64,000 nucleotides of DNA from Climacium dendroides (Eukaryota > Streptophyta > Bryopsida > Hypnales > Climaciaceae). The translations under genes were made by a program, and so were the position numbers. The DNA lies in assembly GCA_950106755.1 (NCBI GenBank), contig OX467083.1, positions 595,501-659,500 on the forward strand, read 5' to 3'. Every line of letters starts with the position of its first letter. Within the stretch, counting starts at the first letter, position 1. Positions 12,400 through 61,544 of the stretch are shown here, piece after piece. The notes below the pieces were generated by a model. The model saw nothing but the letters and a program-made list of their open reading frames with translations. It made no database searches and was not told where the DNA came from.

Positions 12400-14713
12400 A
12401 TGGTGAGAGTGGTTGGGGACTCCTTGATCTCAAGCTCGCGAGCTTTTGCAGAGCAAGAGTGCTGCATGCTGCACGTATGGCTGTTGTGGTGAATTGAGGG
12501 CTCAAGGAGGGAGATTTCTCGTACTGTTGTGTTAGGATGACTGAATGTTGGAAGTAGTACTGCGATGCCCGCTTGTCCAGGATTTGTAGTGGGATTCTGA
12601 CTTGTTTCTCTGCTCGGGCAGTTGGTTTGGAGCCATTTTAATTTGAGCTCGTGGGAGTGTGTTGGAAATTGTAGGACGGAGGTGAGATGCCAGCTGGAGA
12701 AAGGTTGTATCGACCTTTCCTGCTCTTACTACAGGAGAGTAGAGTAGCGCTTGTTCCTTCGGAGCTTGTGGAGCGCGCGAGTAATTAATTTGCTGATTGA
12801 TGATATCTTGCTGCGCAATTAGTGCAGTGCAATTCAAATAGCAGGTCCTCTAATTCATCCCTGTTTTTTTTGGCTTAGGAGCAGATATGGGAGTTTCACA
12901 GAAATGAGCCGTTTCCCGAACTAGGGTTTAGGATTTTCGCTTGAGGAAATATATTCAACTTCGAATTGGGAACTCGTTGCTGTCCGTGGCAATCAGTATA
13001 TCTATAAGTTATTCAATGCTGATGACTGCGTGATTCCAGTCTTCGAACCTCGAAAGAAGCATGGGCCTGCAAGAGAAGAACACTGATTCATGTCTTTCCG
13101 GATTAGTACTTATTCCCGGCAAAGCTAGAAAGAACTGCTCAAAGTGTGTACTATAGATGTGGAGTGAGCTGCAACAGAGTTCAGTGGCAGCAGCCTGGAT
13201 TTAGGGCCGGTAAGATGTACCGAACCGATTGAGAACTCACGTTTGTGTTGCAGAGTCGAAAGCGACTTTGCTATCACCTTTGTTTGCTTCACATTTGAAC
13301 GATGTGCTGAAAATGGCCAAATCGGTGCCACATATGCTGATTCCTGTCATATTCACCCAATACGAGGTATCGTCATATGTCAGAATAGGAGTGCACGTGT
13401 GCACCATGGGGCAGGAGATTGGGCAGCGCGAACAGCAGGGAGGAAGTCAAAGTTGTGTCAGACTGGTAGGGAACGAGACAAGTCGAAATCACATTCCGGG
13501 AACTGGATTGAGCGATCTGGCTGGGTTGGGGATTGGGTTCTGACCCCTGTCGCGGTTCATGGATGTGTTATGACTAATTCTGATAGGTTTTCATGCATAT
13601 TTCTATATATGTCATTCAAACGATCTAATTTAATTAGTCTTGTCATTTATATAAGGGAAAACTGTAATTTAGTTTGAACCTAAGTTTTTGATGACCCTCT
13701 TTGAAGCGATGGTAATTTTCAATAGTCAAGTCCGTTGACTGGGGTTGTATACTAATCAATGGGTGTATGTTGGATTCTTGCCTCAGCAATTGATTGATCC
13801 CGTAGACGGAGCTGCTCCTCGTGAAGCTGCAGTGGAGGTTTGCCGTCCTTGGGCAGCTTGTCTTGCTTCATCTGGCCGCCGGAAGCGTCAGGTATGCGGT
13901 TTTGCTTGCGGACTTTATTTAATGTGTTCGGGTTTTCGGGATTGGAGGTAGTAGCAGATTTTTCGCACATGTAGTTTTCTCAATTTGATGTGTTTCTGTC
14001 CACAGGTTCAATTCTGAGGTCCATTCCGGCGTTGGTCTTTGTGATGTTCTTCTTAGTAACAGTTAGTGTGAATTGGTTTCTGTAATGCAGGCAGATAGTG
14101 ATGGGACTGCCACCTCAATTGGTGTCGTGGGATTTAGATTGTAGTCAACAATTGCAGTGCAGGAGAGAACTGAGAGGCTTTTTGTCGGTGCGTGGACTAG
14201 GTGGTGCACAGGTGAGTGAATTAAGCGGTTGGATGACTTGTGACATGGGTTGGACTACTGTGGTGGTGGTCATGCTGACAACAAATGTGTCGAAATATGA
14301 GGTCTCCTTTACATCAATGTTTGATAAAGAGGTTGTCACATTTTTCCAACCGTAATTGGGTATGAGCCTGGTTGACGGAACCCTAAACCCCGGTATTGAT
14401 GGGAAGAGTGTGCTTTGAATGGTACGAAGTTGCTTATCAACAGAGTGTTGACGTTTGTGTACCCAGGGTATCTGTGCAATCTCAGTCTTCAGGTCTCCAT
14501 GGCCTATCTACCCTTCTTTATCCCTGCCCTTGTCCTCTCACGTACGAGGCAATGGACCAATCCGGTGTTCACCATTTTCATCAGTTTGGAAGAGATCATC
14601 TTCGAATTCCAATGCTTCAGGTATGTATCATATGCCTATCGTCACAGAAAGAGTTTGCCTCTCCTGGTGAGAATGTGACTGACATGGGTAAATGCATGTT
14701 ACGGTGGATTCAG
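12400..14713 (+). other. Presumed 5' part of OSB-PPR locus 1, exons unresolved
   Basis: Several splice-like sites occur here (acceptors near 14090 and 14470, donors near 13899, 14211 and 14621). The frame that joins in phase 1 to the exon at 14714 reads IRCSPFSSVWKRSS before 14620. It has a counterpart, IRCSSSSVWRKP, ending at 51727 in locus 2, which supports a shared exon ending at 14620. Segments near 14160-14220 and 52170-52200 also align. The expected OB-fold and organelle-targeting exons should be here, but I could not identify them with confidence. Confidence 0.4.
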
Positions 14714-15234
14714 GTGAACTACAGTCGGTTGAAGAACTTTGGAAAGAGTACTTCGCGGATCCTACGCAGTGGTGGGACAACAGAGCTGACAAGGTATGAC
14801 TAGATGAAAGAAAGCGGATCCAATACTCGGCTCAACAAGTGACGGGACGTTTCTTGCTTGTGCAAGGCCATGGGCACTTGAGGGCACTTCGTAAAGCAAC
14901 AAGTATGAAATTGCGTTGTTTGCTGTCATTGAGTGGAGTGAACACTGCTCAGATCATTGCAGTGTCATCAACAAATATTCCTGGAATATTGATTGTTAGA
15001 TGCAAGATGAATATGAGACAGTTTTGTAGGTTCTGATCATGGGTTGTGGTGCCTACAGAGGAATCCTAGATCACCTGACTTTAGACATAAGGTGGCAAGG
15101 AAAGCACTTTGGATATATGGCTGGTCAACTCCACCATGGGTAAAGGCAATGCTCAACTTGACAACTGAAGGGAGAATGCAACCTCCTGTTGATTATCGCT
15201 CCAAAGATTCTCAAGACACAACAGAAGGAGACAG
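14714..15234 (+). CDS. OSB-type PDF-motif exons, locus 1
   Basis: Exons 14714-14793 (80 nt) and 15059-15234 (176 nt) are joined by a GT-AG intron. Together they read LWKEYFADPTQWWDNRADK then RNPRSPDFRHKVARKALW, followed by a Ser-Thr-Pro-Pro-Trp-Val segment. This is the PDF motif of plant organellar single-stranded DNA-binding (OSB) proteins: a WWDNR block, the PDF core and the ALW end. OSB proteins bind single-stranded DNA in mitochondria or plastids through an OB-fold and one or more PDF motifs. Only one PDF motif is seen here. The donor at 15235 and the acceptor at 15542 join this exon in frame (codon AG|G) to the PPR-DYW exon, so the product is predicted to be a fusion. The separate-gene alternative would need a stop, and the immediate TAA just past the donor could serve. 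Paralogue conservation favours splicing. Confidence 0.75.
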
Positions 15235-15542
15235 GTAACTTTAGGAATTGAGTTGGCTACCTTGTCTAGTGACTAGAGTAGGTAGAAATATGTGATTTTG
15301 GGTGAGTTTAAGGATTTTTGTGTGTGCAATATGCTCTGTTCTTCCTTTTGGTTATTGGGTGCACTTAAAGTGGAATGATTTGCAGTGAATTGCTATGTGT
15401 GTGAGAGATATTAAGAATTCAAATGGATGAATGCAAATTTGTGGATGTTGAAATATGTGAGTACTGGGCATTAGTGGTCTTGCACCCTTTCGCTGTTCTT
15501 CTTTCGAAGTGATATCTATTGAAGAATCTATTGATGAATCAG

Positions 15543-18354
15543 GCTATCTAAGGGCTACAATGGAAGAAGATGCATTGTGCCTAGTACTGCAAGAGAGTCG
15601 AGGCATATTGTACCGGGTGGTGGCGGTAGTATGTCCTTGAAAACTGCAAGAAGCACGACTGAAGCAATTGGTAATTTGAAGAATGGACTAGAACAAGGCA
15701 TGGCCATCGACTCGTTTATGTATGTTGAAGTTTTGAGACGGTGCTTGAAGGAGGAAAACCTTAATGTTAATGTCGCGAAGCAGGTTCACGATTACATCAA
15801 CCAGAGTGGAATGGAGCAAAATAGATATGTGGCAAACAACCTAGTGAGCGTGTATATCAGGTGTGAAGAATTGGAGGATGCACGTGGAGTGTTTGATAAA
15901 CTTGTGAACAAGAACGTGTTCAGTTGGAACATTATGATTGGAGGTTATGCAAAGCACAATCATGCTGACAAAGCAATGGAACTTTTCAATCAAATGTGCC
16001 AAAGCGGGGTCCAGCCAGATGCATTTACTTTCTCGAGCATCCTGAAGGCATGTGCCGATCTATCAGCTTTGCAGTGGGGCAAAGAAGTTCATGCGTATGT
16101 AAGGCATGCTGGGCTTGAATCAGATGTGCGTGTGGGCAATGCGCTTGTTCGCATGTATGCAAATTGTGGCAGTATCGATGATGCCCGAGTAGTTTTCTGG
16201 CGAATGGAGGAACACGACGTGATCTCATGGAACATAATGATCGGTGGGCTTGCACAGCATGGATTTGAGCAGGAGGCATATGAACTCCTTCTCCAAATGC
16301 AAAGAGAGGGCTGTGTACCAAACGTAACTACCTATGTGAGCATTCTGAGTCTGCGTGCATGCGCAGGGGCTTTGGAGTGGGTGAAGGAGGTTCACAGGCA
16401 TGTCCTGAAAGCGGGACTTGAGTCGGATTTGCGTGTGGGCACTGCGCTTGTCCACATGTATGGAAAGTATGGCAGTTTGGATGATGCTCGGCTAGTTTTC
16501 GACCGGATGGAGGATCGTGATGTGATCACGTGGACCGTGCTGATTGGTGGACTTGCACAACATGGATGTGGGCAAGAAGCATATGAACTGTTTATGCAAA
16601 TGCAAAGGGAAGGCTTGGAACCCGATGCATTCACGTTTGCGAGCATTCTGAATCCGTGTTCAAGCGCAGGGGCTTTGGAGTGGGTGAAGGAGGTTCACAG
16701 GCATGTCCTGAAAGCGGGACTTGAGTCGGATTTGCGTGTGGGCAGTGCGCTGGTTCACATGTATGCTAAATGCGGTAGTTTGGATGATGCGCGACTAGTT
16801 TTCGACCGGATGGAGGATCGTGATGTGATCACATGGACCGTGATGATTGGTGGACTTGCACAACATGGATGTGGGAGTGAAGCATATGAACTGTTTATGC
16901 AAATGCGAAGGGAAGGCTTGGAACCCGATGCATTCACGTTTGCGAGCATTCTGAATCCATGTTCAAGCGCAGGGGCTTTGGAGTGGGTGAAGGAGGTTCA
17001 CAGGCATATCCTCAAAGCGGGACTTGAGTCGGATTTGCGTGTGGGCAATGCGCTTGTCCACATGTATGGAAAGTGTGGCAGTTTGGATGATGCTCGGCTA
17101 GTTTTCGACCGGATGGAGGATCGTGATGTGATCACGTGGAACGTGATGATTGGTGGACTTGCCGAACACGGATGTGGGCAAGATGCATATGAACTGTTTA
17201 TGCAAATGCAAAGGGAAGGCTTGGAACCCAATGCAATCACGTTTGCGAGCATTCTGAATCCGTGTTCAAGCGCAGGGGCTTTGGAGTGGGTGAAGGAGGT
17301 TCACAGGCACGTCCTCAAAGCGGGACTTGAGTCGGATTTGCGTGTGGGCAGTGCGCTGGTTCACATGTATGCTAAATGCGGTAGTTTGGATGATGCACGA
17401 CTAGTTTTCGACAGGTTGGAGGATCGCGATTTAGTGACATGGAACGTGATGATTGGTAGACTTGCAGAGCATGGATGCGGACACGAAGCGGTGGAAGTCT
17501 TTAAAAATATGATTGCAGGCGGTGTGAAGCCCGATGAAATCTCATTCGTTGCAGTGTTGTCGGCCTGTAGTCATGCAGGCCTTGTCGATGATGGCCGGAG
17601 ACTTTTTTTGACTATGACACAAGATTATGGTATCGAACCTACTGTGGAGCTTTGTACGTGCATGGTGGATATTCTTGGGCGTGCAGGACACTTGGAGGAA
17701 GCAAAGCTCTTGATTGGCAACATGCCTGTGGAACCAGATGGAGCAACTTGGGGAGCCTTGCTTGGTGCTTGTAGAACGTATGGGAATGTGGATTTGGGCA
17801 AGCTTGCCGCTAATGAGCTTCTCAAGTTGGAACCGAAGGATGCCTCTGCATACGTGCTTTTCTCGAATATCTGTGCTGCAGCTGGCAAGTGGGAGGAGGT
17901 GGTGTGGGTGCGCACTATGATGCAGGAGAGAGGTATACGCAAGGAGCCAGGGCGTAGCTGGATTGAAGTTGATAACAAGGTCCATGACTTCGTCGTAGGG
18001 GATACTTCTCACTCAGAAGCGAAGGAGATCTATGCGGAGCTGAGGAGATTGAGCGAGACAATCAAGGCCAAAGGGTATATTCCTGATACCCGGCTAGTGT
18101 TGCGGAACATTGAGGAGGAGGAGAAAGAACTTGCTCTTTGCTCCCATAGTGAAAGGTTGGCTATTGCTTATGGACTCATGCGGATACCCCCTGGACAGCC
18201 AATTCGGGTTTTCAAGAACCTTCGAGTGTGTTCAGACTGCCATACAGCAACCAAGTTTATCTCAAAGGTGACTGAACGCGAGATTGTTGTGAGGGATGCT
18301 AATCGCTTTCACCACTTCCAAAATGGCGTGTGTTCTTGTGGTGATTATTGGTGA
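15543..18354 (+). CDS. PPR-DYW editing-factor exon, locus 1
   Basis: An uninterrupted ~937-codon exon follows the acceptor at 15542. After a short Gly-rich linker come six P-L-S triplets (101 aa each in the centre), a last L motif, E1/E2-like motifs, the PG box (KEPGRSWIE) and a full DYW domain. The DYW domain has the deaminase signature HSERLA, the CSDCH zinc site and the terminal CSCGDYW. Such proteins bind organellar transcripts through the PPR array and deaminate a specific cytidine to uridine. The key residues are all present, so it is probably active. No ATG is near the acceptor; the first internal Met lies about 30 codons in. The exon therefore most likely continues the upstream OSB exons rather than starting here. 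Its paralogue is at 47461-50872. Confidence 0.92.
16338..17470 (+). repeat. 303-bp tandem units encoding PPR triplets, locus 1
   Basis: Four units with a 303-bp period (anchor GCTTTGGAGTGGGTGAAGGA at about 16369, 16672, 16975 and 17278) are near identical in DNA. Each encodes one P-L-S triplet. The high similarity implies recent duplication or gene conversion inside the exon. Confidence 0.9.
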
Positions 18355-18357
18355 TGA

Positions 18358-20812
18358 GGTTGGCAATTCTAACCAATTGTAGCCTATGTTGTTTGGAGCT
18401 CTTCATTGGAATTTGTCATCATCTGTGAATATGTCTTGGTGTTGATCATTGATTGAAAACTATTGCATTGGTTGGAAATGACTCCAGGAACATGTTCATA
18501 GAGGTTGTTACCTCCTATATTTTCTTCACCTATTGTTTTTGGAAGAATATGAAATCAAAGGCATTAGAAGAAAAATGAGGCCACAAATGGGTTGTTTCAA
18601 TGTTGTTCCCTGTGTTGGAAACAATTTGTTCCAATCATTGGTGAAAAAATTTACTATTTAAAAAAAAACTATTATTTTTAGAAAATTAAAAATTAAAAAA
18701 ACAATTATAATATTTAGTCAGCGTGGTTGTTGACATGGTAGTATCCCTGCCATGTCAGCAGACTGCATTGCATGAGATTTTTTTGGTGGAACGAAGCTCT
18801 CAAGCTTAGGTAATAACATAACTTGTGGCTTTTTTTTGGCCTCATTTCTTTTCTAATAATTTCTTTTCTAATAGATGGCAAATTTAGCTACAAAAATGAA
18901 CCTTATTTCTTTTTGTTGGCAACACCATAATCTAAGGATTCTTTATTGAGAAGATTATTCTCATAGAAATGTCAGTTGATTGTTTTGAAGTCCTTCCTTC
19001 AAGAAGATGACCATTGTAAGCTGTTATTTTTTTCTAATAGTAAGTTTTCTTTGGTTGCTTCAACTATTGTGCTTATAATTAGGTAACTTGATTTTTGATT
19101 ATTGCTTTGGTGTCAATTTTGGAAGCTAATCCCTACAAGATTGAGAAGACATTTAACAAAAGTTGTCAAAAATTGTCATGTTTAAGTGCATTAAGAGGAA
19201 ATACATTAAAAAAAGTTTTTTTTTCTGAAATTTAATTGTACAAAAGTGTACTAGATGGCTACTATGGGAATGTGGAAAATTTTAGCCAATTTGATTATAT
19301 AGATTGCAAGGTCATAGAAGAAAAGGATTTTCTTAAACCTTGCTGGACAAGGTTAGAAATCTTTAACTTCTCATGGAGTGACATTGTTGTACTATACATA
19401 GTTTTTTTTACCATTGTCTATTATATTATGGTAGTTATATACATGCCAAATTTTAGAAATAGATGAGTTTGTTTTCACCAACTATTCAAAGTTTTCCCTT
19501 TTTGCTTAAGGAACTTTAAGAAACATAACTTTTGATTTGGGCACTTGATAAAAAAATATATATGTATTTTGACGAAGTTCATGGAAGTCCACATCTTGTT
19601 TCAAAATTTCATAGACATCTATTCTAAAATAACTTCTATGATAACCACCTAAACTTCATGTTGTCCCTTAGTTTGAGGAACAATGGACCTTGCTGAGGCT
19701 AAGTAATTCAAGTGAGATGTATATCAGTGTCACTATAAATTCAAGAATAATAAATAGTTTTGGAATGTATTTTAATTGTAATTCACAATTGTTTACATGG
19801 TATTGTTTCTTCCTCCATTTCTTGTTCTTCTATATGTTTATTGGTTTGAATGGTCTTTGTTGCCATAGATGTTCCATTTACACTTTAGTTTTGAAGGCAT
19901 TTGTTGAGTGATTCTATATGAGTTGAAGGCTTTTCAATTGTGATAAGTGATTCATTTTTAAGAATTATAATTAGTTTGCTACATCAATAATTTATCCTAT
20001 TAGTGTGTGACACTAATTTACAAATGACGCACTATTTGTAATATACTTAAATTAGTTTAGATTGAATTTTTTAGTGTGTTCTATTAATTCTCACAAAATA
20101 AAATTAGTGCTTGATAAATCTATAACCCCTACAATCTATTGTTGTTGGGGTAGTGTTTAGCAAATTTATAACCTTTAGTATTTTAGTTCTAAAAAATAAA
20201 ATTAATAAATTGGAAAATCTATAACCTATTCTATTCTTGCAAAGACACTAATATTGTACCTTTTCTAATTGGATAAATTTATATAGCTTAAACTAGAGCT
20301 AACAATACACTTGATCTTCTCAAATGACATTGTTTTTGAGGAAAAATGGGCTTCTAAATGAAGTCGCATGTATTTACAACTTTACATGTGGAACTTGTTA
20401 AATCAAATGTATACACATGGCAAATTCTTGAAATACATTGGGAATGTCCATTTACAAAATGTGTCAATAGAGACGGTTGAAATCACTGATTAATATTAAA
20501 GTTAGAATTTGCAAAGCAAGAACTATCTATAGATTCCTAAAACTTCAAATGACTAGAGTGTGTCATTAGAGAATGTGTAGGAACATTGCTTACCACTAAA
20601 GTGAGAATTTACTAGTTGACTAAGAAATAACTCTAAGTTTTTGGAAATTAAAATGATTGTATCATTGTTCGTGTAGTAAGGAATCGTTTTGCTTGGGATG
20701 TACATTGTAGGAATGATACTTGTTTCAAAATTTTCTAGTTTCAAATATCTTTATAAGGTTTCAAAATTACCTACAGATAAGTTTATCATTAGTGTCGTAC
20801 ACGTAGTGCAGG
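18358..20812. other. 3' flank of locus 1, duplicated at locus 2
   Basis: No gene is visible. Several blocks align with the reverse strand downstream of locus 2: GGTTGGCAAT..AACCAATTG after the stop; TTGCTTTGGTGT..AATTTTGGAAG near 19100 against about 46965; the CTATTAGTGTG-to-CTATAACC segment at 19998-20130 against about 46435-46580; and TATACACATGGCAAATT near 20410 against about 46145. The duplication therefore covers the 3' flank to at least 20450. Confidence 0.6.
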
Positions 20813-24364: not shown

Positions 24365-25443
24365 CTAGTTCAGGTTCATATTCTTGACCCAGGACTTGTT
24401 TACCCTTGTGTCCATCCATATGCTCTGAAAATCCTCCAATTGCAAAGATCTGTTTGGAAAGATAAACTTTATCCTATATGGTCCCATCCATCTGGTGTGT
24501 AACTTACTCGGAAAGATCCAATAGCGGCTGTCATACAACAAGACTAATCTGCCAATCTTGATTCTGTGGTCTGCCGGAAATTTTTTTGTCATGATTTGTC
24601 TTCCTCCTTGCCTGTACCTCCTTTGTCTCAGCCAAGGTCACTTTTCTTGCTTCCTCCAAGACTTTGATGGCCATGAGTCAGATTTCCAGATTAGTGTTCT
24701 GGATTGCAGTCCTCACGGTGATAACTCGATGAGTCTCCACCTCCAATTCAATTCCATGAATTGCTGCTTGTCCAAATACTAGGAAGAAAGGACTCCTTCC
24801 TGTCGTGGTCTTTTTGGAAGTGTTGTAGGCATGGACAACTGATGGAAGCTTTAAATCTTAATCCATCTTATGTTCAGAGACCATTTTGTTGAGGGAGCTT
24901 TCTATAATACCATTGGCCCGTTCTATCAATCTGTTGGCTCTCGGGTTGTAAGGTGTGGTCTTTCGGTACTTGATCAGGTACTTTGAGGTGATTTCCAAAA
25001 TGACATCGTTGAGGAAGTGCAATCCTCTATCACTTACCAACTCCAACGGATGTCCAAATTTCATCAAAATTTCCGTAAATAGGAAAGAAGCAGCCATCCA
25101 AGCGGAATTATTTCGGGTCGGACGTGTTTCAACCCATTTAGTAGCATAATCCATCACAAGGATTATATATCTTTTTCGGCCAACACTCATTGGAGTGATG
25201 GGGCCAACAAAATGGACTCCCCATTTTTCAAATGGCACCAGTGGAATAATAGGAGTAAGCGGCCAATGGTTCCGGATGGAAGGGACTCCCATCCGTTGAC
25301 ATTGATGATTGATCACAACTCCCTACGTACGTTTTTACATCATGTACCAGATATGGCCACCAGTATCCGGATGTGCAAATCCGGTTTATTGTGGTGATGG
25401 TTGCCAAGTGTCTTCCAGACGGTTTGGAATGCAAGGCCTTCAT
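24365..25443 (-). pseudogene. Integrase of element B
   Basis: Visible in order are an H2C2-type remnant (GYWWPYLVHDVKTYVGSCD), the catalytic core with FVGPITPMSVG, YIILVMDYATKWVE, LVSDRG and ANRLIERANGIIESS, and a C-terminal segment GRLVLLYDSRYW..KLHTRWMGPYRI. The second Asp (in SDRG) and the Glu (in IERANG) of the DDE triad are present. The first Asp position reads His (WGVHFVGP). Together with breaks between the segments, this makes the enzyme inactive. Family assignment to retroviral-type integrases of Ty3/gypsy elements is secure. Confidence 0.85.
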
Positions 25444-31696: not shown

Positions 31697-34195
31697 CTAA
31701 ACGCTTGTGTTCCCTACATTTATTTGGATTTGCACCTCACCTCCTTCCTTGTCACTAGGTTTGTCTTTTTCTTCCACTTGTGCCATTGGCATAGATGGAG
31801 ATGTGGAGATTGAAAACACTTCATCCACTTCATGGTTTTCATCATTGGGAACCATTAGCCCAATGGTTTGTACCATCTCAACGACTATATCCTCCTTTTC
31901 CGGTAGAAGGTTTTCACTATTCAAGTACCTAGTTCCATCTACAAACCTAGCTATGGAAGGTATGTTGTCAACATCTACATAATCGTCTTCATCCGATTCA
32001 AGGTCAAAGATGTCTCTTTGATGGACTTCGAGATCTTCATTATTTGGATTAGGCGTATCAAATGTTTCTTCATTGAAATTGTCCACATTGTAGTTCATTG
32101 CATCTCCATCATCCCACAAGGACTCAACGTCCTCGTCTTTCAAAATAGGCCCATCCAAATCCTCAGATTTGTCATTATCATGGTCTAAAGACTCAACATT
32201 TTCATCATACCACTTCTTCTCATCTTTTCCCTTGGATGCAGCTATGACTTTGGAATTGGTGTACACATATACCAAATCAGCTGCTCTTTGTGACATCAAC
32301 TTGTTCCGAGATTTATTATGAACAAAAAAATAGCTACTCCAATTTTGTTCATATGAAGGTAAGGATATGGGTTGGGCCAAAATCTTCTTGGCAATTGGAG
32401 CAATAAATTTCCCACATGCACCTTCAAAATCCCATCATGCATGTGCCAACAATATTTATTCACTCGGATCTAACATGTTATGGAACAAAGGCTCCCTATG
32501 TCGAAAGGCCACAAATTCCTTCACAACATTCAAGTAATTCTCTTGATTGCATATTTTTGTCATGACATGTTTACATGCGTCCATTGCATCTTGATCGTCC
32601 ACTAAATCTTTATCATGAAGAAGGTAGGGGTTCAAAAGAGCTTCTGCATAATGTAGATCTGTCTCCCCTATTTTCCATCGTTGGTAAAATGACTCCTCCA
32701 ATGGGATGGCTAGATTTGGAGCCAAATGAAAGGGCGCTCTTTGTAAACCAAGAACATGTTTTTCTATATTCCTCATAATAAAGAGCACCTTGCCCATGCA
32801 TGGCGTCTTCGCATCCAAATTATGTAGACCCTACACAATTGGAGCCATCAATTGCCGAAAGTTAGTGCAACAGTTCCAAAAATGCTCATCCAATATAAAC
32901 TTTTTGACATTCCAAGACTCGTTCTTCAAGGGGCGATTCCTCGTATCTCACAGCTTTCGCATGTAGTCCACCCACTGTGGGTCCACTACAATTTATTCCA
33001 ACTCCACTTTCACTTTCAACAAACAATCTATCATGATAAAATTAGAGGCAAACCTTGTTCAAATGGGCTTCAATAAATTATACTGCGTCGGGTGCTTCCA
33101 AAATACAGCTAGAGGCATTTGTCTACCCTTGATGAAATTCACAATGGTTTGTACCTTCTTCACTACGTCTTAAATCCATACTTGCTTCCCCCAATCCTTC
33201 CGCAACAAATTCAAAGCGTGTACCATGCATCCTTGGAAAAAAATGTGGGGATATTTGTGGGATATCAAATTCCATGTTGCCAAGTTCACTAGAGCATTAT
33301 CGATAGTCACTTACACCACATTATTGGGACCCACCTGCTCTATAAATGTTTTCAACACACTAGCCGAATACTCTGCATTTTTTTCAACTCCCGAAGTATC
33401 TACCAAACCAATGAATTGCTCACCCGTCAAAGATACAAGCATGGCATTTATCAATGGACAATTCGTAACCGAACTCCATCCATCCATAGACAATGTTGCT
33501 CCAAACTTTCGAATGCTATCTTCAGTTCTTCTATGGAGTTGTGCCTCAAGGTTTTTCTTAGCTTGGTCCAGTAATTTATGTTGCAGATCAGGGTAGGATG
33601 GTGGGGCGTAAGGCCTATTAAACTCAAACGTTCTCTTCACCGCCTCTTTGAAGGTGGGATTACGGGCGGTAGCAAATGGTATATTTGTTGAATAGAAAAA
33701 ATTGGCCCAAAGTGCATTCAATTGGCATTTATTTGCTTCGTTAAAGTCATCCACTAGCCTGCTCTGTCGAGGAGGCCTACTACTAGATGCTCTTGGAGTT
33801 TCGCGGTCACCAAAATGACCAGATGCTTCTGTACTTCGATTCACTTCTAAACTAACTCCAACAAACTCCAACGGCATTGCGCACAAACCTTCTTCCATCG
33901 AAAGTGCCAAGCTCCTCCCATTGGAATCATTTCCTCCCACCCTATGCGTGTTGTTTCTGTTCACATTGTCAGGTCGTCTTGGAAACTTTCCATCGCAACA
34001 AACAAATAGAGCTTGAATTTCCGACGTCAATTTCGTACAAAAGCTAACACCTTTGTCACGAAAATTGGATCTGCCTTCATATCCTAAGTGGTTCAATATA
34101 CAGCTTGGCTTTTTCGAAAACACCAAGCTACAAGCCTTGCACTTTACCTTGCCTTCTACCGGGACACTATACCAAATACACCAATCCTTGTTCAT
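31697..34195 (-). pseudogene. Decayed hAT-superfamily transposase
   Basis: From the N-terminus on the minus strand there is a BED-like zinc finger (VKCKACSLVFSKKPSCILNHLG), then the DUF659/RNase H-like core (LSMDGWSSVTNCPLINAMLV, TIDNALVNLATWNL, QGCMVHALNLLRKDWGK). The insertion region comes next, then the C-terminal dimerisation block (NWSSYFFVHNKSRNKL, RAADLVYVYTNSKVI) and an acidic tail to 31697. This order is that of plant hAT transposases, which move DNA by cut and paste. At least six stops interrupt it between 33310 and 32820 (for example TAA near 33311 and TGA near 33055), plus breaks at 32455-32380. Terminal repeats were not found. Confidence 0.85.
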
Positions 34196-34424
34196 AGCAA
34201 CAAGGTTGGATTTTTACAATAAAAATCAAATAGACAATATAAAGATAAAAAAACCAATGTCAGAAATAGAACAAAAAGTGTATAATTGTATATACAAAGC
34301 CTTGAATATCAAGGCCCCCCCATGTTGCAACCCAAATTTTTGATTTTTTTCTCTATCATGTTTTAAAACATAGAATCCGAAAATAGTATGCCTAGATCAG
34401 TACAAGAAGAAAAAAAAAATTAAA

Positions 34425-47460: not shown

Positions 47461-50400
47461 TCACCAGTAATCACCACAAGAACACACGCCATCTTGGAAG
47501 TGGTGAAAGCGATTGGCATCCCTCACAACAATATCTCGTTTAGTCGCCTTTGAGATAAACTTGGTTGCTGTATGGCAATCTGAACACACTCGAAGGTTCT
47601 TGAAAACCCGAATTGGCTGTCCAGGGGGTATCCGCATGAGTCCATAAACAATAGCCAACTTCTCACTATGGGAGCAAAGAGCAAATTCTTTCTCCTCCTC
47701 CTCAATGTTCCGCAACACTAGCCGGGTATCAGGAATGTAGCCTTTGGCCTTAATTGTCTCACTCAATCTCCTCAACTCCGCATAGATCTCCTTCGCTTCT
47801 GAGTGAGAAGTATCCCCTACGACGAAGTCATGGACCTTGTTATCAACTTCAATCCAGCTACGCCCTGGCTCCTTGCGTATACCTCTCTCCTGCATCATAG
47901 TGCGCACCCACAACACCTCCTCCCACTTGCCAGCTGCAGCATAGATATTCGAGAGAAGCACGTATGCAGAAGCATCCTTCGGTTCCAACTTGAAGAGCTC
48001 ATTAGCAGCAAGTTTGCCCAACTCCACATTACCGTACGTTCTACAAGCACCAAGCAAGGCTCCCCAAGTTGCACCATTTGGTTCCATCGGCATGTTGTCA
48101 ATCAAGAGCTTTGCTTCCTCCAAGTGTCCTGCTCGCGCAAGAACATCCACCATGCAATTACAAAGCACCGCACTAGGTTCGATGCCATAATCTTGTGTCA
48201 TAGCCAAAAAATGTCTACGGCTCTCATCCACAAGGCCTGAATGACTACAAGCTGACAACACTGCAACGAATGAGATCTCATCGGGCTTCACACCGTCTGC
48301 AATCATAGTTTTAAAGACTTCTAGGGCTTCATGCCCACATCCATGCTCTGCAAGTCCACCAATCATCACGGTCCAAGTAATCACGTCCCGTTCCTCCATC
48401 TTGTCAAAAACCAGTCGCGCATCATCGATACTACCACACTTTGCATACATGTGCACCAGCGCGTTGCCAACACGCACATCTGACTCAAATCCCGCTTCAC
48501 GGGCATGGCTATGAACCTCCCTGACCCACTCCAAAGCCCCAGCGCTTGCACATGCATTCAGGATACTCGCATATGTAAAGGCGTCTGGTTTGAAGCCATC
48601 CTCTTTCATTTGGAGAAGAAGTCGATATGCTTCAGACCCACAGCCATGTTGCGCAAGTCCTCCAATCATCACGTTCCAAGTAATCACGTCCCGTTCCTCC
48701 ATCTTGTCAAAAGTCAGTCGCGCATCATCCATACTACCACACTTTGCATACATGTGCACCAGCGCGTTGCCAACACGCACATCTGACTCAAATCCCGCTT
48801 CACGGGCATGACTATGAACCTCCCTGACCCACTCCAAAGCCCCCGCGCTTGCATATTCATTCAGGATACTCATATAAGTGATAGCGTCTGGTTTGAAGCC
48901 ATCCCCTTTCATTTGGAGAAGAAGTCGATATGCTTCAGACCCACAGCCATGTTGCGCAAGTCCTCCAATCATCACGTTCCAAGTAATCACGTCCCGTTCC
49001 TCCATCTTGTCAAAAGTCAGTCGCGCATCATCCATACTACCACACTTTGCATACATGTGCACCAGCGCGTTGCCAACACGCACATCTGACTCAAATCCCG
49101 CTTCACGGGCATGACTATGAACCTCCCTGACCCACTCCAAAGCCCCCGCGCTTGCATATTCATTCAGGATACTCATATAAGTGATAGCGTCTGGTTTGAA
49201 GCCATCCCCTTTCATTTGGAGAAGAAGTCGATATGCTTCAGACCCACAGCCATGTTGTGCAAGTCCTCCAATCATCACATTCCAAGTAATCACGTCCCGT
49301 TCCTCCATCTTGTCAAAAACTAGTCGCGCATCATCCATACTACCACACTTCGCATACATGTGCACCAACGCATTGCCAACACGCACATCTGACTCAAATC
49401 CCGCTTCACGAGCATGACTATGAACCTCCCTGACCCACTCCAAAGCCCCCGCACTTGCACATGCATTCAGGATACTCATATAAGTGATAGCGTCTGGTTT
49501 GAAGCCTTCCCGTTTCATTTGGAGAAGAAGTCGATATGCTTCAGACCCACAGCCATGTTGTGCAAGTCCTCCAATCATCACATTCCAAGTAATCACGTCC
49601 CGTTCCTCCATCTTGTCAAAAGCCAGTCGGGCATCGTCCATACTACCACACTTTGCATACATGTGCACCAACGCATTGCCAACACGCACATCTGACTCAA
49701 ATCCGGCTTCACGGGCATGACTATGAACCTCCCTGACCCACTCCAAAGCCCTCGCACTTGCACATTCATTCAGGATACTCATATAAGTGATTGCGTTTGG
49801 TTTGAAGCCTTCCCGTTTCATTTGGAGAAGAAGTCGATAAGCTTCAGACCCACAGCCATGTTGCGCAAGTCCTCCAATCATCACATTCCAGGTAATGACA
49901 TTCCGTTCCTCCATCTTGTCAAAAGCCAGTCGCGCATCATCGATACTGCCACACCTCGCATACATGTGCACCAGCGCGGTGCCCACACGCACATTTGACT
50001 CAAATCCGGCTTCACGGGCATGTCTATGTACCTCCCTGACCCACTCCAAAGCCCCCGCGCTTGCACATGCATTCAGGATACTCGCATATGTAAAAGCGTC
50101 TGGTTTGAGACCTTCCCGTTTCATTTGGAGAAGAAGTCGATATGCTTCCTCACCATTACCACTGTCGGCATATGCTCCAATCATCACACTCCAGGTAACC
50201 ACATCGCGCCTCGCCAACTTATCGAAAGTGTTCCTTGCCTCCCCTATGTTCCCACACTTTGCATACATTTTAAGGAGCGAAGTCCCCACACGAATATCTG
50301 ATTCCAACCCACCCTCTCTGATATATGCATGAACTTCCTCGACCCACTTCGAGGCTGATGGGCTCGCAGAGGCTTTCAGGATGCTCAAGTAAGTAACTGC

Positions 50401-50872
50401 ATTAGGTTGCATGCCTTCCTTTCGCATGCGATGGAAAACTTCCATGGCGTCTTTCACACAACTGTGCTGAGCATAGCCTCCAATCATGACGTTCCAACTA
50501 ACAACATCCTTCTTCGCAAGTTCATCAAACACTCTGCATGCATCCTCCAGTCTCCCACATCTGATGTATCCACTCAATAAGTTGGTTGCCACATATATAT
50601 TTTGCTGCATGCCACTCTCAATGGTGCACTCATGAACCTGCTTTACTGCCGGAAGGTCTTCGTGCTTCAAGCACCGCTTCAGAATTTCAACATAGGAGTA
50701 CGAGTCTATTGCAATGCCCTGTTGTAGTCGGTTCTTCAAAAGATCAATTGCTTCACTAGCGGTCGTTGCGCTTTGCATGCGTGTACTCCCACCACTAACT
50801 TGAACTGCTTGCTTTGACGCTTTCGCACTAGCGGGCAAAGTGTTTCCCCTCCCCAAATTGCCCTTGGGTAAC
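47461..50872 (-). CDS. PPR-DYW editing-factor exon, locus 2
   Basis: A ~1137-codon open exon starts at the acceptor next to 50873. It has a short basic linker, eight P-L-S triplets, a last L motif, E1/E2-like motifs, the PG box (KEPGRSWIE) and a complete DYW domain. The DYW domain has HSEKLA, CSDCH and the CSCGDYW end. It is the paralogue of 15543-18354, almost identical over the last ~250 residues but with two more triplets. The protein is predicted to be a site-specific C-to-U RNA-editing factor in mitochondria or plastids. An ATG occurs at 50889, but it lies in the intron by comparison with locus 1, where the junction residues RL(S/P)KG are conserved. Fusion to the OSB exons upstream is therefore favoured. 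Confidence 0.92.
48480..50110 (-). repeat. 303-bp tandem units encoding PPR triplets, locus 2
   Basis: Anchors repeat every 303 bp (the CCTCCCTGACCCACTCCAAA block near 48516, 48819, 49122, 49425, 49728 and 50031). The units near 48800-49400 are nearly identical, including the same GCATATTCATTCAGG variant in two neighbours. This indicates recent unit duplication. Confidence 0.9.
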
Positions 50873-51133: not shown

Positions 51134-51626
51134 CTATTCGGTTGTACAATCTCTAGAGAATCATTGGTATGGTAACCACCACCACAAGGTAATTTGCTTG
51201 AAGTCACCAATTTGATTGTCGCCTTCACCCATGGTGGGGTTGACCAACCATCTACCCAGAGTGCTTTCATTGTCACCTTGTGTTTAAAGTCTGGTGATTT
51301 GGGATTCATCTATACACACCAACAACCCACAATCCAATATGAAAACAATCAAGGAACACATGTCCTTGAGCATTGAAGTGATTTAATTAGCCTTCAATTC
51401 AATTCGAAACCCAATCAAAATGTAATACACTTCTTATTTACCAAAGTGCTCAGGACCTTATACAAGCAATAAATAACCTCTCAATGTCTATTCACAAATA
51501 TCTAACATCAACTAATTGGTAGCCTTAGATATACTTCTAGTGATACCTTGTAAAATCTGTTGTCCCACCACTGCCAAGGATCCGCAAAATACTCCTTCCA
51601 ATCTTGCTCAATTGTCTGTACTTCGC
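51134..51626 (-). CDS. OSB-type PDF-motif exons, locus 2
   Basis: Exons 51626-51547 (80 nt) and 51309-51134 (176 nt) read WKEYFADPWQWWDNRFYK then MNPKSPDFKHKVTMKALWVD, followed by WSTPPWVKA. They have the same lengths, phases and PDF motif as in locus 1. The intron between them is 51546-51310, and the next intron is 51133-50873. The codon AG|G rebuilds Arg at the junction to the PPR exon (..QPNR-LPKG). An upstream exon ending at 51727 joins in phase 1 (..KPDASG-EVQ). Motif retention with many silent and conservative differences from locus 1 suggests that the coding function is maintained in both copies. Confidence 0.75.
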
Positions 51627-54240
51627 CTGATTCAACTGTTAAATACTTTAGACATGTCATTCATGTTCTTTCTGAGCAACGAAAAGCACCTGCTTCTGTA
51701 CATGAGAGCGGCCACATTAAACATACCTGATGCATCGGGTTTTCTCCAAACTGATGAAGATGAACACCTAATTGATCCGCTGTTTCTTCCTCCATGGGAG
51801 GCTGAGACAAATAATAAACATGGGTGTATAAGCCTTGGAGACTTCAAGAGTGTGATCACACAGGCATCCTGGTCACACAAATCCCCGACCGACTGTCAAA
51901 AAACACATTCAATTGGTAGCAGTTTAGGCATAAGATAGTCATCAGTACTAATATTTAATGTTTAACGTTCAACCAACCAAGTTCACGTCCTTCAGTTTGG
52001 GAGAAGCGTAACACAATATTGATCAAATATAATGCTATCGAGGAACCTAAATGTATGGGAAACATAAGTTGGTAACATGACCACAGTACAATTCAGACAA
52101 GTCACAAGTCATCCAACTACTTCCGTAGAACAGGTGTATGGTCATAAGCCAACACTCACTCACCCGTGCACCAACTCCAAGCACCAAATAGCTTCTCGTT
52201 TGTTGCCTATGATGCAATAAAAGGTGCATTAATGCAGACATCTTGTGGCTTGGTGGCTACAAACTTCTAACGGATCCTCTTCAACAACAAAGTAATACCA
52301 CAGATAGAAATCTAACTTCTTAATCAGAAAAAGTATATGAATGAATCTCCTCAACCCTTCAGCCCCTTTTCAAGTGTATGTCCCTAGCCAGTTGAAAAGA
52401 GCTCCTCCTCCATATCCATGCAATGTCTGAAACCTTGAGTAAAAGTTGAGAAAGTAGCATATAAGTATCAATCTGCTCCCTTCAACTGAGTTCGTTCTCT
52501 TCTTCAAATTGCTAAACCTCCAGGCAGGAAGAGAAATTCTAGCTTGGTTCACCAACCCAACCTCAACATCAGCAACGTCCAATGAACACAACACAAGCTT
52601 TAAAACTAGACTTCAGTAGAGACACAAAGTATTATGTATGACTGGCAATATCTTCAAGTCTGTTCAATTGCTTGTCTGAGTTTATACCTCCTTCTCGGAG
52701 AAAGAATCAACTGCAGCAGCTTGACATCGACATGAACAACTTCAAGTGACTTCAGCCTCAGAAAACTTGACTGGAACGTAGACAGGGAAAGTTCAACTGT
52801 GAAAGTATCAATCTCTAAGATTCTCCATCCCTTACAAGAACCCTGCAACAGATACTGGCACTTGCACAGACACAAAATTCTGCTGAAAATTCTACTGAAA
52901 ATTGCAACTCGTGAAGAGCAAGGAATCTAAACCACAACATCTTCACATGAACAACCCCAATATCTGAGCTTCCAAAAAATTGACTTCAATCTAAACCCAA
53001 AGCATCGTGTGAGATCAACCATTTTAAATATGCTCCTCCCGTTGCAACTGCGTCTGCTCTACCCACCGAATTGCCAAGCCCTAACTATGGAGACGAAATC
53101 ACCCTAAACAGCTTCACATGAACAACGCCCGATATATGCAACAGGTTCCGTATCTAACTTCACTCTAACCCCAATCCATCATACATGAATCAACCTCTGC
53201 GAGTTCTTGGGCTACCTTTCAACTGTTTCTGCTCTCAGCTTCAAATTGATAAACCCTAACTACAGAAAGAATAGCTTCCTCAAAGAAGCTCTTAGGATCC
53301 ATAGCCAATGCAATCTTGACTTCAATCTAGACTCAAAGTATCATGTAAGAATCGCTCTCCTCGAGTTATTCAGACACCTTCCAATTCTGTCCGCGCTTCC
53401 CTCCGAATTGCTAAACCCTAATCGAGTAAACCTCCAAGCAGGAAGAGAACCCACGAGCTCCCAACATATGCAAAGGGCTTCAAAATTTAACTATGCTGCA
53501 GAGAAAGGATCATCTGCAGCAGGGAGGAATTATGCTCTGAAGTTTGGTTCACCTGGCAGTGGATACTCAACGAGCGAACAGGTAAATCTGGTGCAGCAAG
53601 AGGACATGGCGAGACACCACACGTCAGACTCACCAACCAACCCTAAGACCCTGAGACCAGTCGAGGTTGAGCAGTGCAAGTCGCACTTTGCAACGGTGTT
53701 TGATAATCTTAATTCTGATCATCTTGTTCAGAGCCTCGGGCAAGATAGCTGCTGTTGATAAAAGCAGATAGTTCGACTTTTAGAATCCAAGGATCCCTTG
53801 AGGCCTTGAGTGACACCAGAACTGGAAGTTCTAAAATCCGCGGGCTAAGCAATCCTCGCCGCCCCTCGAAATGGTGTCTGGCCGGCATCAAAACCATGGA
53901 CCCCTGTTTGACGCATCCTAATAAAGACTAAAACCCGATCACTTCAAACCCTAGATCTAAATCGAACGAGAATTCGCGACAACGAGAGATTAGGGTTTGA
54001 GCCTTCTTCCGTTTGCACCACCAGTGAGCTTGTCTGTTTTCGTCGTGGTCTCCTTATTAGTTTTCTTCGTGGTGAGAGCGGCCGTGGTCAGTTTGCTAGT
54101 TCTTCCGTCAGGATCGGAAGCCCTGCAATTCTGACGGAGGCTCTGTCCGATAGCGTTGACGCTAAGAAGCAAGTTATAATCAAGTGGATCCTGCAATTGC
54201 TAGAGTCCGTCCTGTTCTGTTGAACAAGATATACAGTGTA
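51627..54240 (-). other. Presumed 5' part of OSB-PPR locus 2, exons unresolved
   Basis: One likely exon ends at 51727 (IRCSSSSVWRKP before it), matching locus 1. Further upstream there are repeated exon-like fragments with splice-like edges, but no OB-fold could be read. The opposite strand shows open frames (53207-53758) without recognisable motifs. Confidence 0.35.
52981..53480. repeat. Degenerate ~165-bp tandem repeat upstream of locus 2
   Basis: Three units share GACTTCAATCTAAACYCAAA, then TCAACTG-like and GCTAAACCCTAA-type words, with starts near 52981, 53154 and 53315. A fourth, more diverged unit lies at about 52310-52540 with the CCTCCAGGCAGGAAGAGAAA end also seen at 53430. Confidence 0.55.
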
Positions 54241-58706: not shown

Positions 58707-61544
58707 TCATTCTTCAACCATAGAACCATCGATATTTGCATCAGTCGTGAAGGCTGCCACTGATGCCTTGATGATTTGAATTTGCAAGCTTGGAACCGTC
58801 ACTTTTGGATTTTTAGTTCCGTCACGAAACCGTGGCTTCCAAGCTGTCATGATACAATCTGTGCTTGACCATGTTGAAGGTATAACGCTATCTTCACGCC
58901 ACACATTCCCTTGTTTGGTGTCCCAACCTTCATATGTCTCCATATTAATGTGCCGATCCGAAGTAGGCCTCCAATATTGGATTTTGATCATATGCATATG
59001 CCCTGGATCGGGGCTCGGAGCCGTAATAGCCCTAGCAAGCCAAAATGGTTTTGGATCACCATCAGCAAGACGCATTGCAACAAAAGAACCTGCGTGTGTA
59101 TCACGAGCAATACGAAACGAAGAACATGGACGATCACGCTTATGTCCAACAAAATTGGCATCCTCCGCATTTTCTTCACGCAATGTGCCATTTCTTTGCA
59201 TTTGATCTGTTTCATCATTGGCAATTCTTGAAGCTGGCCAAAATCCATCAAGTAATGCCTCCCGCACCTGAAGAGGTGCATCTAGAGCAGCTCTGATGCC
59301 TTTCCAATACTCTTCTAGTGGACCATTCTTCCGCCTGTACTCTCCATTATGATCATTGTTTGCCATTTTGTTCTAATGCCTAACATAGCCATTCAAACCT
59401 TTCATATGTCTTCAAGAGCTTTCATTGGAACTGGAGCCAAAGGTTTAGGGCTACCACTTGGTACTTTAGGAAGACCATCCTTAGTCTCTGACCACATTCT
59501 AATCCCATTGCCATGCTCTGGCAACCACTTTGGGTCAGTACACAAATTCTTATACTCCATCAAAGGCCATCCTGAAGAATCCATAAAAAACTTGAATTGT
59601 TGACTTTTTGGATGCCCCCCTAATTCATCGCCACTAGTGCCCAAATAACCCTCCACAAATTTCTTGAAATCAGGGAGCTCCTCAATGAGATGAGGAATCA
59701 CAGGGTGCGTTTCACAATCCATAAAGGAATTTATGAGCTTTGGAAGTGTTGGGTAGTCATTTGTCTTCAATCTTGAGCTCCATCGACCAAAAAGAGCATC
59801 AATGTCTTTGTGAGTGTGTCCCACAATAAGGAAGTTGATGTATACCTCACGAAAAATGCCTTTGTATACAAGCAGAGAGCAGAAAGCAAAAACGTATCGA
59901 TTCTTGTTGTTCCCTGACGCATTGTCCAATTGCAATATTAATATTGGTGGGAGAGGTTGAGTTGGAAGTGGCTGTTCTGGAGGTGGAAGGAGGGAGTCCA
60001 AGCAATTTTCTGCTCCATTTAAAAGCGCCTTTGTCAATGTGGATTGCCCCCCCTCAATAGAAATAACACCCTTGATGAATTCTTAGGCGGCCCTTCCAAA
60101 TCCCGCAACAACCTTGCAATGGATCCAATGGTATGATTCGAATCTGTTGGGAAAATGCCCACACCATAGTGTGCATATCGTACATCGCCATGACCATGAG
60201 CAATCATACTTGTAACAGCAACAGGCATTTTCATGAAGGATTCCGTCGATTTGTTCTTGTGAGAAAAGTGTGGAGAAGCCGTTTTTTAGTGATCCATTTT
60301 ATCATGAATGATGCACAACATTTTGTCCGGGCATCTCACGGAAAATTCCCGATTTCCATAGTAGTACTCTCTATGAGCCCTCTGACCTGCAACATGGGTA
60401 TTCAAAATGTTGGTATACTTATCAAACGACTCTGATTTCCAACAAGCACTCCTCAATTGCTTATACTCATCGCACAAGCTACACCTAGCAAAACTATCCC
60501 CACGAGCCTTGGCAGCAAATTCAGGGAAATTCTGACGATGAATGTTGCTCAAGCCATTGGAAGAAATCGGCTGCAAATTGAACTCTGCATTGGACTCATT
60601 GATTTTAGGTAATTGGTCACTCCAACGAAAAGTGGAGGGTAGAACCATCGCTGCAACTTTCTCTCCAGACTCTATTGTCCTTGTTTTGTGTGGCATTCGA
60701 TCGGCATTAGACTCAATAAGAGTTCGAAGCGTGGCAGTAGCTTGAAGAGTATGAATGCGGGGTTTTTTGGATCCCACATTTCCATGCACTTGAGCTTGCT
60801 TCCCAATTCTAGCCTTCTCTTTGTACCTATAGAACGTAGCTCTTGCAATCCCATGAATGATCCACCACGCAGTGGGGCACACTTCTCTGCCTTTCAAGGT
60901 AATCCACTCTTTGCTACCATTGTCTTTATGGATTTGCCTGTGCACCTCCAAAAGTGTCTTGCTACGCGCCTTGAAGTCCTCACCCGAATATAGTTCAATC
61001 CTTATCGCTTGGATACTGTGGACACTGATGTGATCGATTCCATAGAGAGGAAAAGTTCTTTCTTGGGAGGAATCTGAGGATCAATCCTTTCACGAGTTGT
61101 TTCATACGATCGAACCCCCTTACGAATTCTTCTGCTTGAGGGGTTCATGGCTGCGTTATATACATGGGTCTGGTCATGGTCATATAAGCTAACATTGTCA
61201 TCTAAAAAATCTCTCTTGATGTCCCAAAAACGAAGCGACCAAACATTCCCAGATGAGAAGAGTTTCTCGTTCAGAGACTCAACAATTTGAATGGCAACCC
61301 GGTCATCGCCGAGAGGCTTTCCATCCTGGTCAATGATTAACTCTGGGTCAACGTTTTGGCAAACCCCCCTTGCAAGGTCCACCCCATCTTCGTTTCGAAG
61401 AGTGACGAACCGTGAGACCCATTTTGCACGAGGAATTCCTTCGCACACCTGAACATCATGTGGAAATGGAGGAACTGGATTTGCAAACTCATCAAACCCA
61501 TGGAAATCCATTCTGCAAGCACGAAGATCACTCCTTAGATTCAT
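58707..61544 (-). pseudogene. DUF7869-like transposon gene, decayed
   Basis: From the N-terminus there is an unknown part (61544-61002), then LKGREVCPTAWWIIHGIARA, KKPRIHTLQA and NADRMPHKT. Next come a Cys-containing segment (ARCSLCDEYKQLRSACW), CPDKMLCIIHDKMDH, the core LQLDNASGNNKNRYVF with NFLIVGHTHKDIDALFGRW, and a C-terminal part (58707-59366) with SFVAMRLADGDPKPFWLARA. The QLDN..NKNR and GHTHxDID blocks are those of the protein family annotated as DUF7869, widespread in bryophyte, algal and animal repeats and thought to be transposon-derived. The acidic residues could be an RNase H-fold triad, which is inference. Breaks: a TAA at about 60284, frame changes near 61010 and 60080, and stops near 59390, where a short intron is also possible. 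Confidence 0.65.

Follow-up and report, generated by a model that had tools for sequence, protein, structure and literature searches.

A predicted PDF-PPR fusion and its inverted paralogue in the moss Climacium dendroides

Pentatricopeptide repeat (PPR) proteins of the DYW type edit organellar RNA, and OSB proteins bind organellar single-stranded DNA (ssDNA). The two systems, OSB DNA maintenance and PPR-DYW RNA editing, are usually handled apart. In a 64,000-nucleotide stretch of the moss Climacium dendroides (contig OX467083.1, positions 595,501 to 659,500; here the window), two genes, A and B, are each predicted to link them in one protein, with the PDF motif of OSB proteins ahead of a PPR-DYW editing factor. 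The closest described editors are the moss PPR-DYW proteins PpPPR_56, PpPPR_77 and PpPPR_78 of Physcomitrium, which are like gene A in their PLS array, E motifs and DYW deaminase. A table of 107 Physcomitrium PPR proteins gives RRM, LAGLIDADG, SMR, NYN, CBS and SAP as added domains, with none of OSB or PDF type, and its ten DYW members have no added domain (PMC9459714; a comparison with the entries of that table). RRM-PPR4, listed in the same table for PpPPR_3 and PpPPR_76, likewise joins a further nucleic-acid-binding module to its PPR array, but this module is an RRM, the protein is of the P-type class, and its function is in rps12 trans-splicing. The PDFs of the window reach at best 62% (A) and 58% (B) identity to motifs of named OSB proteins and have the same predicted helix-strand-strand-helix order. 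Unlike OSB proteins, the window genes lack an SSB/OB match and carry the PDF N-terminal to PPRs.

What is new is the predicted domain architecture, in which a PPR editing factor has a PDF motif joined to its PPR array. No description of a PDF-PPR fusion was found in open-licence papers, among which none pairs OSB (as a whole word) with DYW and none pairs the PDF domain with pentatricopeptide. A review of mitochondrial DNA replication contains both "PDF motif" and pentatricopeptide; the pentatricopeptide passages seen in it concern mitochondrial RNA polymerases and not OSB proteins (PMC6963530). These searches agree with an earlier note on this DNA, which knew of no described OSB-PPR fusion, and within that literature a PDF-PPR subfamily of mosses, a clubmoss and a fern is apparently undescribed.

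The earlier note had placed the PDF motif in exons 14714-14793 and 15059-15234 and had joined them, from a donor at 15235 to an acceptor at 15542, to a complete PPR-DYW exon through an in-frame AG|G junction. The coordinates and splice sites are exact, and the joined frame is open until the TGA ending at 18354. Gene A probably starts upstream of 14714, with two more exons, because the product of 14101-14211 and 14467-14620 aligns with protein P0004 of the moss Ceratodon purpureus, the start MGLPPQLVSWDLD aligning with MELPSRFVWWDLN. The predicted gene is composed of the following parts.

14101 to 14211, plus strand: gene A exon 1 (model), start ATG and N-terminal presequence, donor GCACAG|gtgagt, 111 bases
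14467 to 14620, plus strand: gene A exon 2 (model), remaining Ser/Arg-rich presequence, acccag|GGTATC to CTTCAG|gtatgt, 154 bases
14714 to 14793, plus strand: gene A exon 3, first half of the PDF motif (14728-14793), attcag|GTGAAC to GACAAG|gtatga, 80 bases
15059 to 15234, plus strand: gene A exon 4, second half of the PDF (15059-15145) and variable linker, ctacag|AGGAAT to AGACAG|gtaact, 176 bases
15235 to 15542, plus strand: gene A intron 4, stops in all three frames, AG|G in-frame splice
15543 to 18354, plus strand: gene A exon 5 (acceptor aatcag|GCTATC), linker, PLS-type PPR array, E (17779-17967), E+, DYW deaminase (18073-18351) and stop, 2812 bases

Exons 3 and 4 encode the PDF halves VEELWKEYFADPTQWWDNRADK|RNPRSPDFRHKVARKALWIYGWSTPPWVK. 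By composition count alone, residues 1-89 have 9 K+R, 3 D+E and 17 S+T. Exon 5 matches the Pfam families PPR_2 (6.9e-104), E_motif (PF20431, 5.9e-19), Eplus (PF20430, 1.9e-5, at 24.7 bits just above the cut-off of 24) and DYW_deaminase (PF14432, 4e-43, full profile length 1-93/93), and the protein ends in CGDYW. The translated DYW domain has HSE, CSDC and CSC motifs, which presumably have their usual role in the deaminase. The PPR motifs follow the PLS order: fixed 35-35-31 slicing keeps the arrays of both A and B in register until their last motifs.

Membership of the PDF was assigned with a hidden Markov model (HMM) built from 121 PDF motifs, taken from 35 proteins that carry the name OSB in their source records. 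These motifs were excised with a mixed seed profile that contained window motifs, and the HMM itself holds OSB motifs only. It replaces an earlier mixed-seed HMM, whose matches were partly circular because window and homologue motifs were in the seed. The scan covered 2044 six-frame, stop-to-stop open reading frames (ORFs) of the window of at least 20 amino acids, with reporting at E<=1, and matched four of them, the two PDF halves of A and the two of B.

51309 to 51082, minus strand: gene B half, E 2.3e-9
15017 to 15235, plus strand: gene A half, E 2.8e-8
14692 to 14796, plus strand: gene A half, E 1.3e-7
51660 to 51511, minus strand: gene B half, E 5.7e-5

On the joined models, the domain E-values (Z=100000) are 4.6e-15 for gene A and 3.3e-13 for gene B. 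The OSB-type motif proposed for exons 3 and 4 of gene A is therefore matched by a profile of OSB motifs alone, and a chance PDF-like sequence was rejected, the matches being just the four expected ORFs of 2044. In a 30-row alignment of moss, clubmoss, liverwort and fern sequences, the PDF residues W-F-P-QWWDNR-K-PDFKHK-LWVDG-P-WV are at least 90% conserved. Pfam has no family above its cut-off on the PDF region of the window genes (the sole line was GCR1_C, E 0.13), and this may be the reason that database entries label such proteins hypothetical or plain PPR. NCBIfam scans gave nothing further on the PDF.

The rest of an OSB protein was searched for as well. No SSB/OB-fold match to Pfam at E<=0.01 was found in the N-termini of A (225 amino acids) or B (210 amino acids), nor in six plus-strand ORFs of 13168-15235, which cover the 5' part of gene A and DNA upstream of it; the same scan found PF00436 in both OSB-type controls, P0123 and P0155. 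An OSB gene with an OB-fold running into a PPR gene was rejected for gene A, where the scanned ORFs hold no PF00436. The window genes are not called OSB because the OB domain was tested for and not found; by their predicted domains, each is a PDF-PPR fusion and not a fusion of a whole OSB protein. Of the OSB-PPR fusion proposed earlier, the fusion stands, the OSB share is limited to the PDF motif, and the locus is not unique.

The second gene of identical design, absent from the earlier note, is an inverted paralogue on the minus strand at 52241-47461.

52164 to 52241, minus strand: gene B exon 1 (model), start ATG and presequence, aligns with Ceratodon P0002, 78 bases
51727 to 51868, minus strand: gene B exon 2 (model), presequence, acceptor 51868 favoured over 51892, 142 bases
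51547 to 51626, minus strand: gene B exon 3, first half of the PDF (51612-51547), 80 bases
51134 to 51309, minus strand: gene B exon 4, second half of the PDF (51309-51223) and linker, 176 bases
47461 to 50872, minus strand: gene B exon 5, open reading frame with PPR array, E, E+ and DYW by alignment with gene A, 3412 bases

Exon 2 of gene B most likely begins at 51868, because gaccag|GATGCC gives GAR|DACVI, which compares with GAQDACVI in Ceratodon P0002; with this acceptor the model is open and encodes 1295 amino acids. Residues 1-74 have 9 K+R, 2 D+E and 14 S+T, again as a bare composition count. The five-exon layout, the exon phases and the AG|G junction are common to A and B, and the PDF is split at the same codon boundary. 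The N-terminal parts of A and B are 49% identical, and those of gene B and Ceratodon P0002 are 74% identical. For introns 1-4, identity between A and B is 62, 63, 64 and 51%, against 44, 42, 45 and 47% in shuffled controls. The value for intron 4 is barely over chance and so supports neither a single gene nor two transcripts.

Related proteins are deposited from several land plants. Region 60-260 of gene B as query found 35 proteins, among them Ceratodon P0002 (75% identity over 97% of the region) and P0004 (51% over 100%), 29 entries of the clubmoss Diphasiastrum complanatum and one protein of the fern Adiantum. The earlier note had proposed a search of moss proteomes for proteins with both the PDF motif and DYW, and the two Ceratodon proteins are such cases, the deposited entry of each containing all three of PDF, PPR and DYW; the layout also occurs in the deposited Diphasiastrum and Adiantum proteins. 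Its presence in mosses, a clubmoss and a fern suggests that the design is old. A local accident of annotation or assembly was rejected, since the layout recurs in paralogue B and in proteins of Ceratodon, Diphasiastrum and Adiantum. The liverwort match P0025 (Calypogeia fissa) is of PPR-DYW type and has just the 3' half of a PDF, KPLWVDGWSTPPWV (residues 62-89), which lies at the expected place and reflects either decay or a gene-model error. A chimeric PDF query gave 605 matches, 120 of them listed, so that species counts are lower bounds. No row named Physcomitrium stands among the 35 matches of the B region or the 120 listed of 605, some rows being nameless, and these lists do not establish absence from Physcomitrium, liverworts or seed plants. 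Used as a query, the fern PDF matched nothing but itself in a set of 3 candidates.

PPRs are present in 53 of 154 examined proteins. A full PDF (at least 45 amino acids) occurs once in 31 of the 53, twice in 17, three times in 3 and not at all in 2; that is, 51/53 have one, in a set retrieved with PDF-containing queries whose numbers show existence and not frequency. Going by listed names, Diphasiastrum accounts for 48 of the 53 (with one locus tag common to P0028 and P0030), and 19 of these 48 entries have two or three consecutive PDFs; the two PDFs of P0005 lie far apart. Outside the PPR-bearing set, P0003 of Kingdonia uniflora, also one of the 35 matches of the B region, matches the PDF motif more than ten times and shows no PPR match.

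The deposited fusions, the exons and phases kept in two diverged paralogues, and a PDF that has changed less than its flanks make it very probable that PDF, PPR array and DYW domain are parts of one protein, and the claim of a single fused product is well supported. What weighs against it also bears on a different arrangement, in which the PDF belongs to a short gene of its own that stops after 15234 and a separate PPR-DYW gene starts from an ATG at 15631 or from a promoter in the intron. The statement that the PPR exon has no nearby ATG was inexact: in-frame ATGs at 15631 in A and 50778 in B, each ahead of the first PPR, would allow a PPR protein without the PDF, and P0006, a match of the B region with ENA as its source, is deposited with its start after the PDF region. 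Against two genes, the short PPR form would lack a presequence, both A and B keep donor, acceptor and phase, and the deposited proteins of Ceratodon, Diphasiastrum and Adiantum are fusions. Two transcripts are accordingly very improbable.

Selection between A and B bears on whether the PDF does anything in the fused protein. The ratio of nonsynonymous to synonymous substitution rates (dN/dS), computed with the earlier start of gene B exon 2 at 51892, is 0.24 in the PDF (bootstrap 95% confidence interval (CI) 0.08-0.73), 0.21 in the PPR tract (0.16-0.27) and 0.60 in the remaining N-terminal part that flanks the PDF, the difference between PDF and flanks having a permutation p of 0.04. The 29 codons directly after the PDF give 1.07. 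A functional module held by a loose tether would be expected to show such a pattern; the PDF and flank intervals overlap (flank parts 0.61, CI 0.36-1.06, and 0.58, CI 0.31-1.08), and this overlap counts against reading the PDF as a functional part. The unconstrained linker beside the PDF and the half motif of the liverwort protein would also fit PDF exons that are a decaying leftover, carried without function. The lower dN/dS of the PDF and its conserved core across mosses, clubmoss, liverwort and fern argue to the contrary, and we give decay only a slim chance.

The best explanation of the whole, which we hold tentatively and at somewhat less than even likelihood, is that A and B encode PDF-PPR-DYW factors for C-to-U editing in organelles with the PDF as an RNA clamp. 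In PPR-RNA structures, the N-terminal side of PPR proteins faces the 5' end of the RNA. Each gene would give one nuclear-made, probably organelle-targeted protein composed of a presequence, the PDF, a flexible linker, PLS-type PPRs, E/E+ and DYW. The PPR array would select an organellar RNA, and the DYW cytidine deaminase would deaminate a cytidine in a C-to-U change. The PDF would hold single-stranded nucleic acid as a clamp at the N-terminal end, RNA immediately 5' of the PPR footprint being the likeliest ligand, and would raise affinity or keep the editing site unfolded; this clamp role is itself a possibility that falls a little short of an even chance. A and B probably act on different sites, because their PPR arrays read different codes, and the targets predicted with the PPR code differ.

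Several observations weigh against an RNA clamp in an editing factor. Moss PPR56 is active as an editor in E. coli, and its table entry names no added domain (PMC9459714), so that a PDF is unnecessary for editing as such. A DYW match is present in only 26 of the 53 PPR-bearing homologues, so the link between PDF and deaminase is not a fixed one. OSB1 and OSB2 are reported to prefer ssDNA over double-stranded DNA or RNA (PMC4166229), which speaks for DNA and not RNA as the ligand of the PDF. According to a review, the PDF of AtOSB1 alone is enough to bind ssDNA (PMC6963530), which in itself fits a clamp on single-stranded nucleic acid. Both statements also favour the same fusion with another task, in which the PDF binds organellar ssDNA and tethers the editor to nucleoids or transcription bubbles for co-transcriptional editing. 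The fit of the moss PDF to the OSB profile and to its predicted order of secondary structure, and the presence of the PDF in PPR proteins without a DYW match, point the same way. The loop between LW and PxW stands on the other side: it has six residues in 69 of 76 PPR-linked PDFs (window genes counted; the other 7 do not match the pattern) and four or five in 271 of 379 PDFs of proteins without PPRs, so that ligand preference may differ from that of OSB PDFs. An ssDNA tether is unlikely, and somewhat less likely still is a wider proposal of an early land-plant dual-ligand class, which would use one to three PDFs to hold ssDNA and its PPRs to hold RNA, couple editing to the DNA template, and have been amplified in clubmosses and lost or unnoticed in standard model plants.

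The loop lengths among the 379 PDFs of no-PPR proteins are four residues in 208, five in 63, six in 27 and seven in 1, with 80 that do not fit, and the six-residue loop of the window genes is a minority form there. It is also present in OSB-type proteins, for example P0123 of Cryptomeria and the unnamed P0155, and for this reason the fused PDF may descend from an OSB type with a six-residue loop. A FastTree tree was built from 166 motifs after redundancy cuts, 37 PPR-linked (of 76) and 129 no-PPR (of 353). It places all 37 PPR-linked motifs in a clade with one no-PPR motif (P0074) at a local support of 0.56; the clade with two no-PPR motifs has 0.39, and that with three has 0.87. This weak tree is compatible with a single origin of the PPR-linked PDFs and does not prove it.

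Ceratodon P0002 served as a stand-in for the window proteins in AlphaFold (30-row alignment, mean predicted local distance difference test (pLDDT) 75.5, predicted template modelling score 0.48). Its modelled PDF is a helix-strand-strand-helix unit with elements at 108-167 and block means of 71-83 over residues 111-160; pLDDT is below 50 at 1-105 and 165-219, after which come the PPR solenoid and the DYW domain. The AlphaFold model of the OSB protein P0123 has the same order in both of its PDFs, after an SSB-type domain. A search of solved structures with the gene B PDF gave no match, and the PDF fold itself was not matched in the best 50 Foldseek rows of either model; those of P0002 are mostly PPR and other helical-repeat structures, and those of P0123 are SSB structures. 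The best match of the P0002 model is the synthetic PPR-DYW protein 9kfx (E 7.1e-43), and 5orq, a designed cPPR bound to ssDNA, matches at 4.3e-14; both are artificial and, judging from their names, free of PDF. As a third possibility, the PDF of the fused protein would be a module for protein-protein contacts or dimerisation and would play no part in handling nucleic acid. The motif has conserved Trp residues and AtOSB2 is a tetramer (PMC6963530), but reviews assign ssDNA binding to the PDF itself (PMC6963530, PMC4166229), and such a module is improbable. PDF-PPR proteins offer a direct test of whether editing factors touch organellar DNA, and the PDF is a natural add-on module for PPR tools.

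The divergence between A and B is uneven along their length. At synonymous sites it is about 0.86 in the PPR tract and drops to 0.20 and 0.12 in the E and DYW parts, and the similarity extends about 200 bases beyond the stop (17488-18559 in A, 48327-47218 in B). The DYW domains of A and B are 95% identical, and 73-76% identical to those of Ceratodon. This suggests that gene conversion between the inverted copies homogenised the deaminase and not the PPR code, which makes divergence in the C-terminal part unsuitable for dating the pair. In each array, the PLS triplets include several near-identical tandem copies (16324-17430 in A, 49899-48385 in B), and offset matches occur between A and B. In gene B, fifteen P and S motifs were decoded, and an unbroken run of nine of them reads U by the PPR code. 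The near-identical copies and the run of U reads point to a recent repeat expansion in the PPR arrays.

Mobile-element-like ORFs lie between and beside A and B, all on the minus strand, at 24861-25322, 33314-34213 and 59405-60082. In a scan of 10 ORFs, a match to Glypican stayed below its cut-off, and the families found in the three mobile-element-like ORFs are the rve integrase (PF00665), DUF659 and DUF7869.

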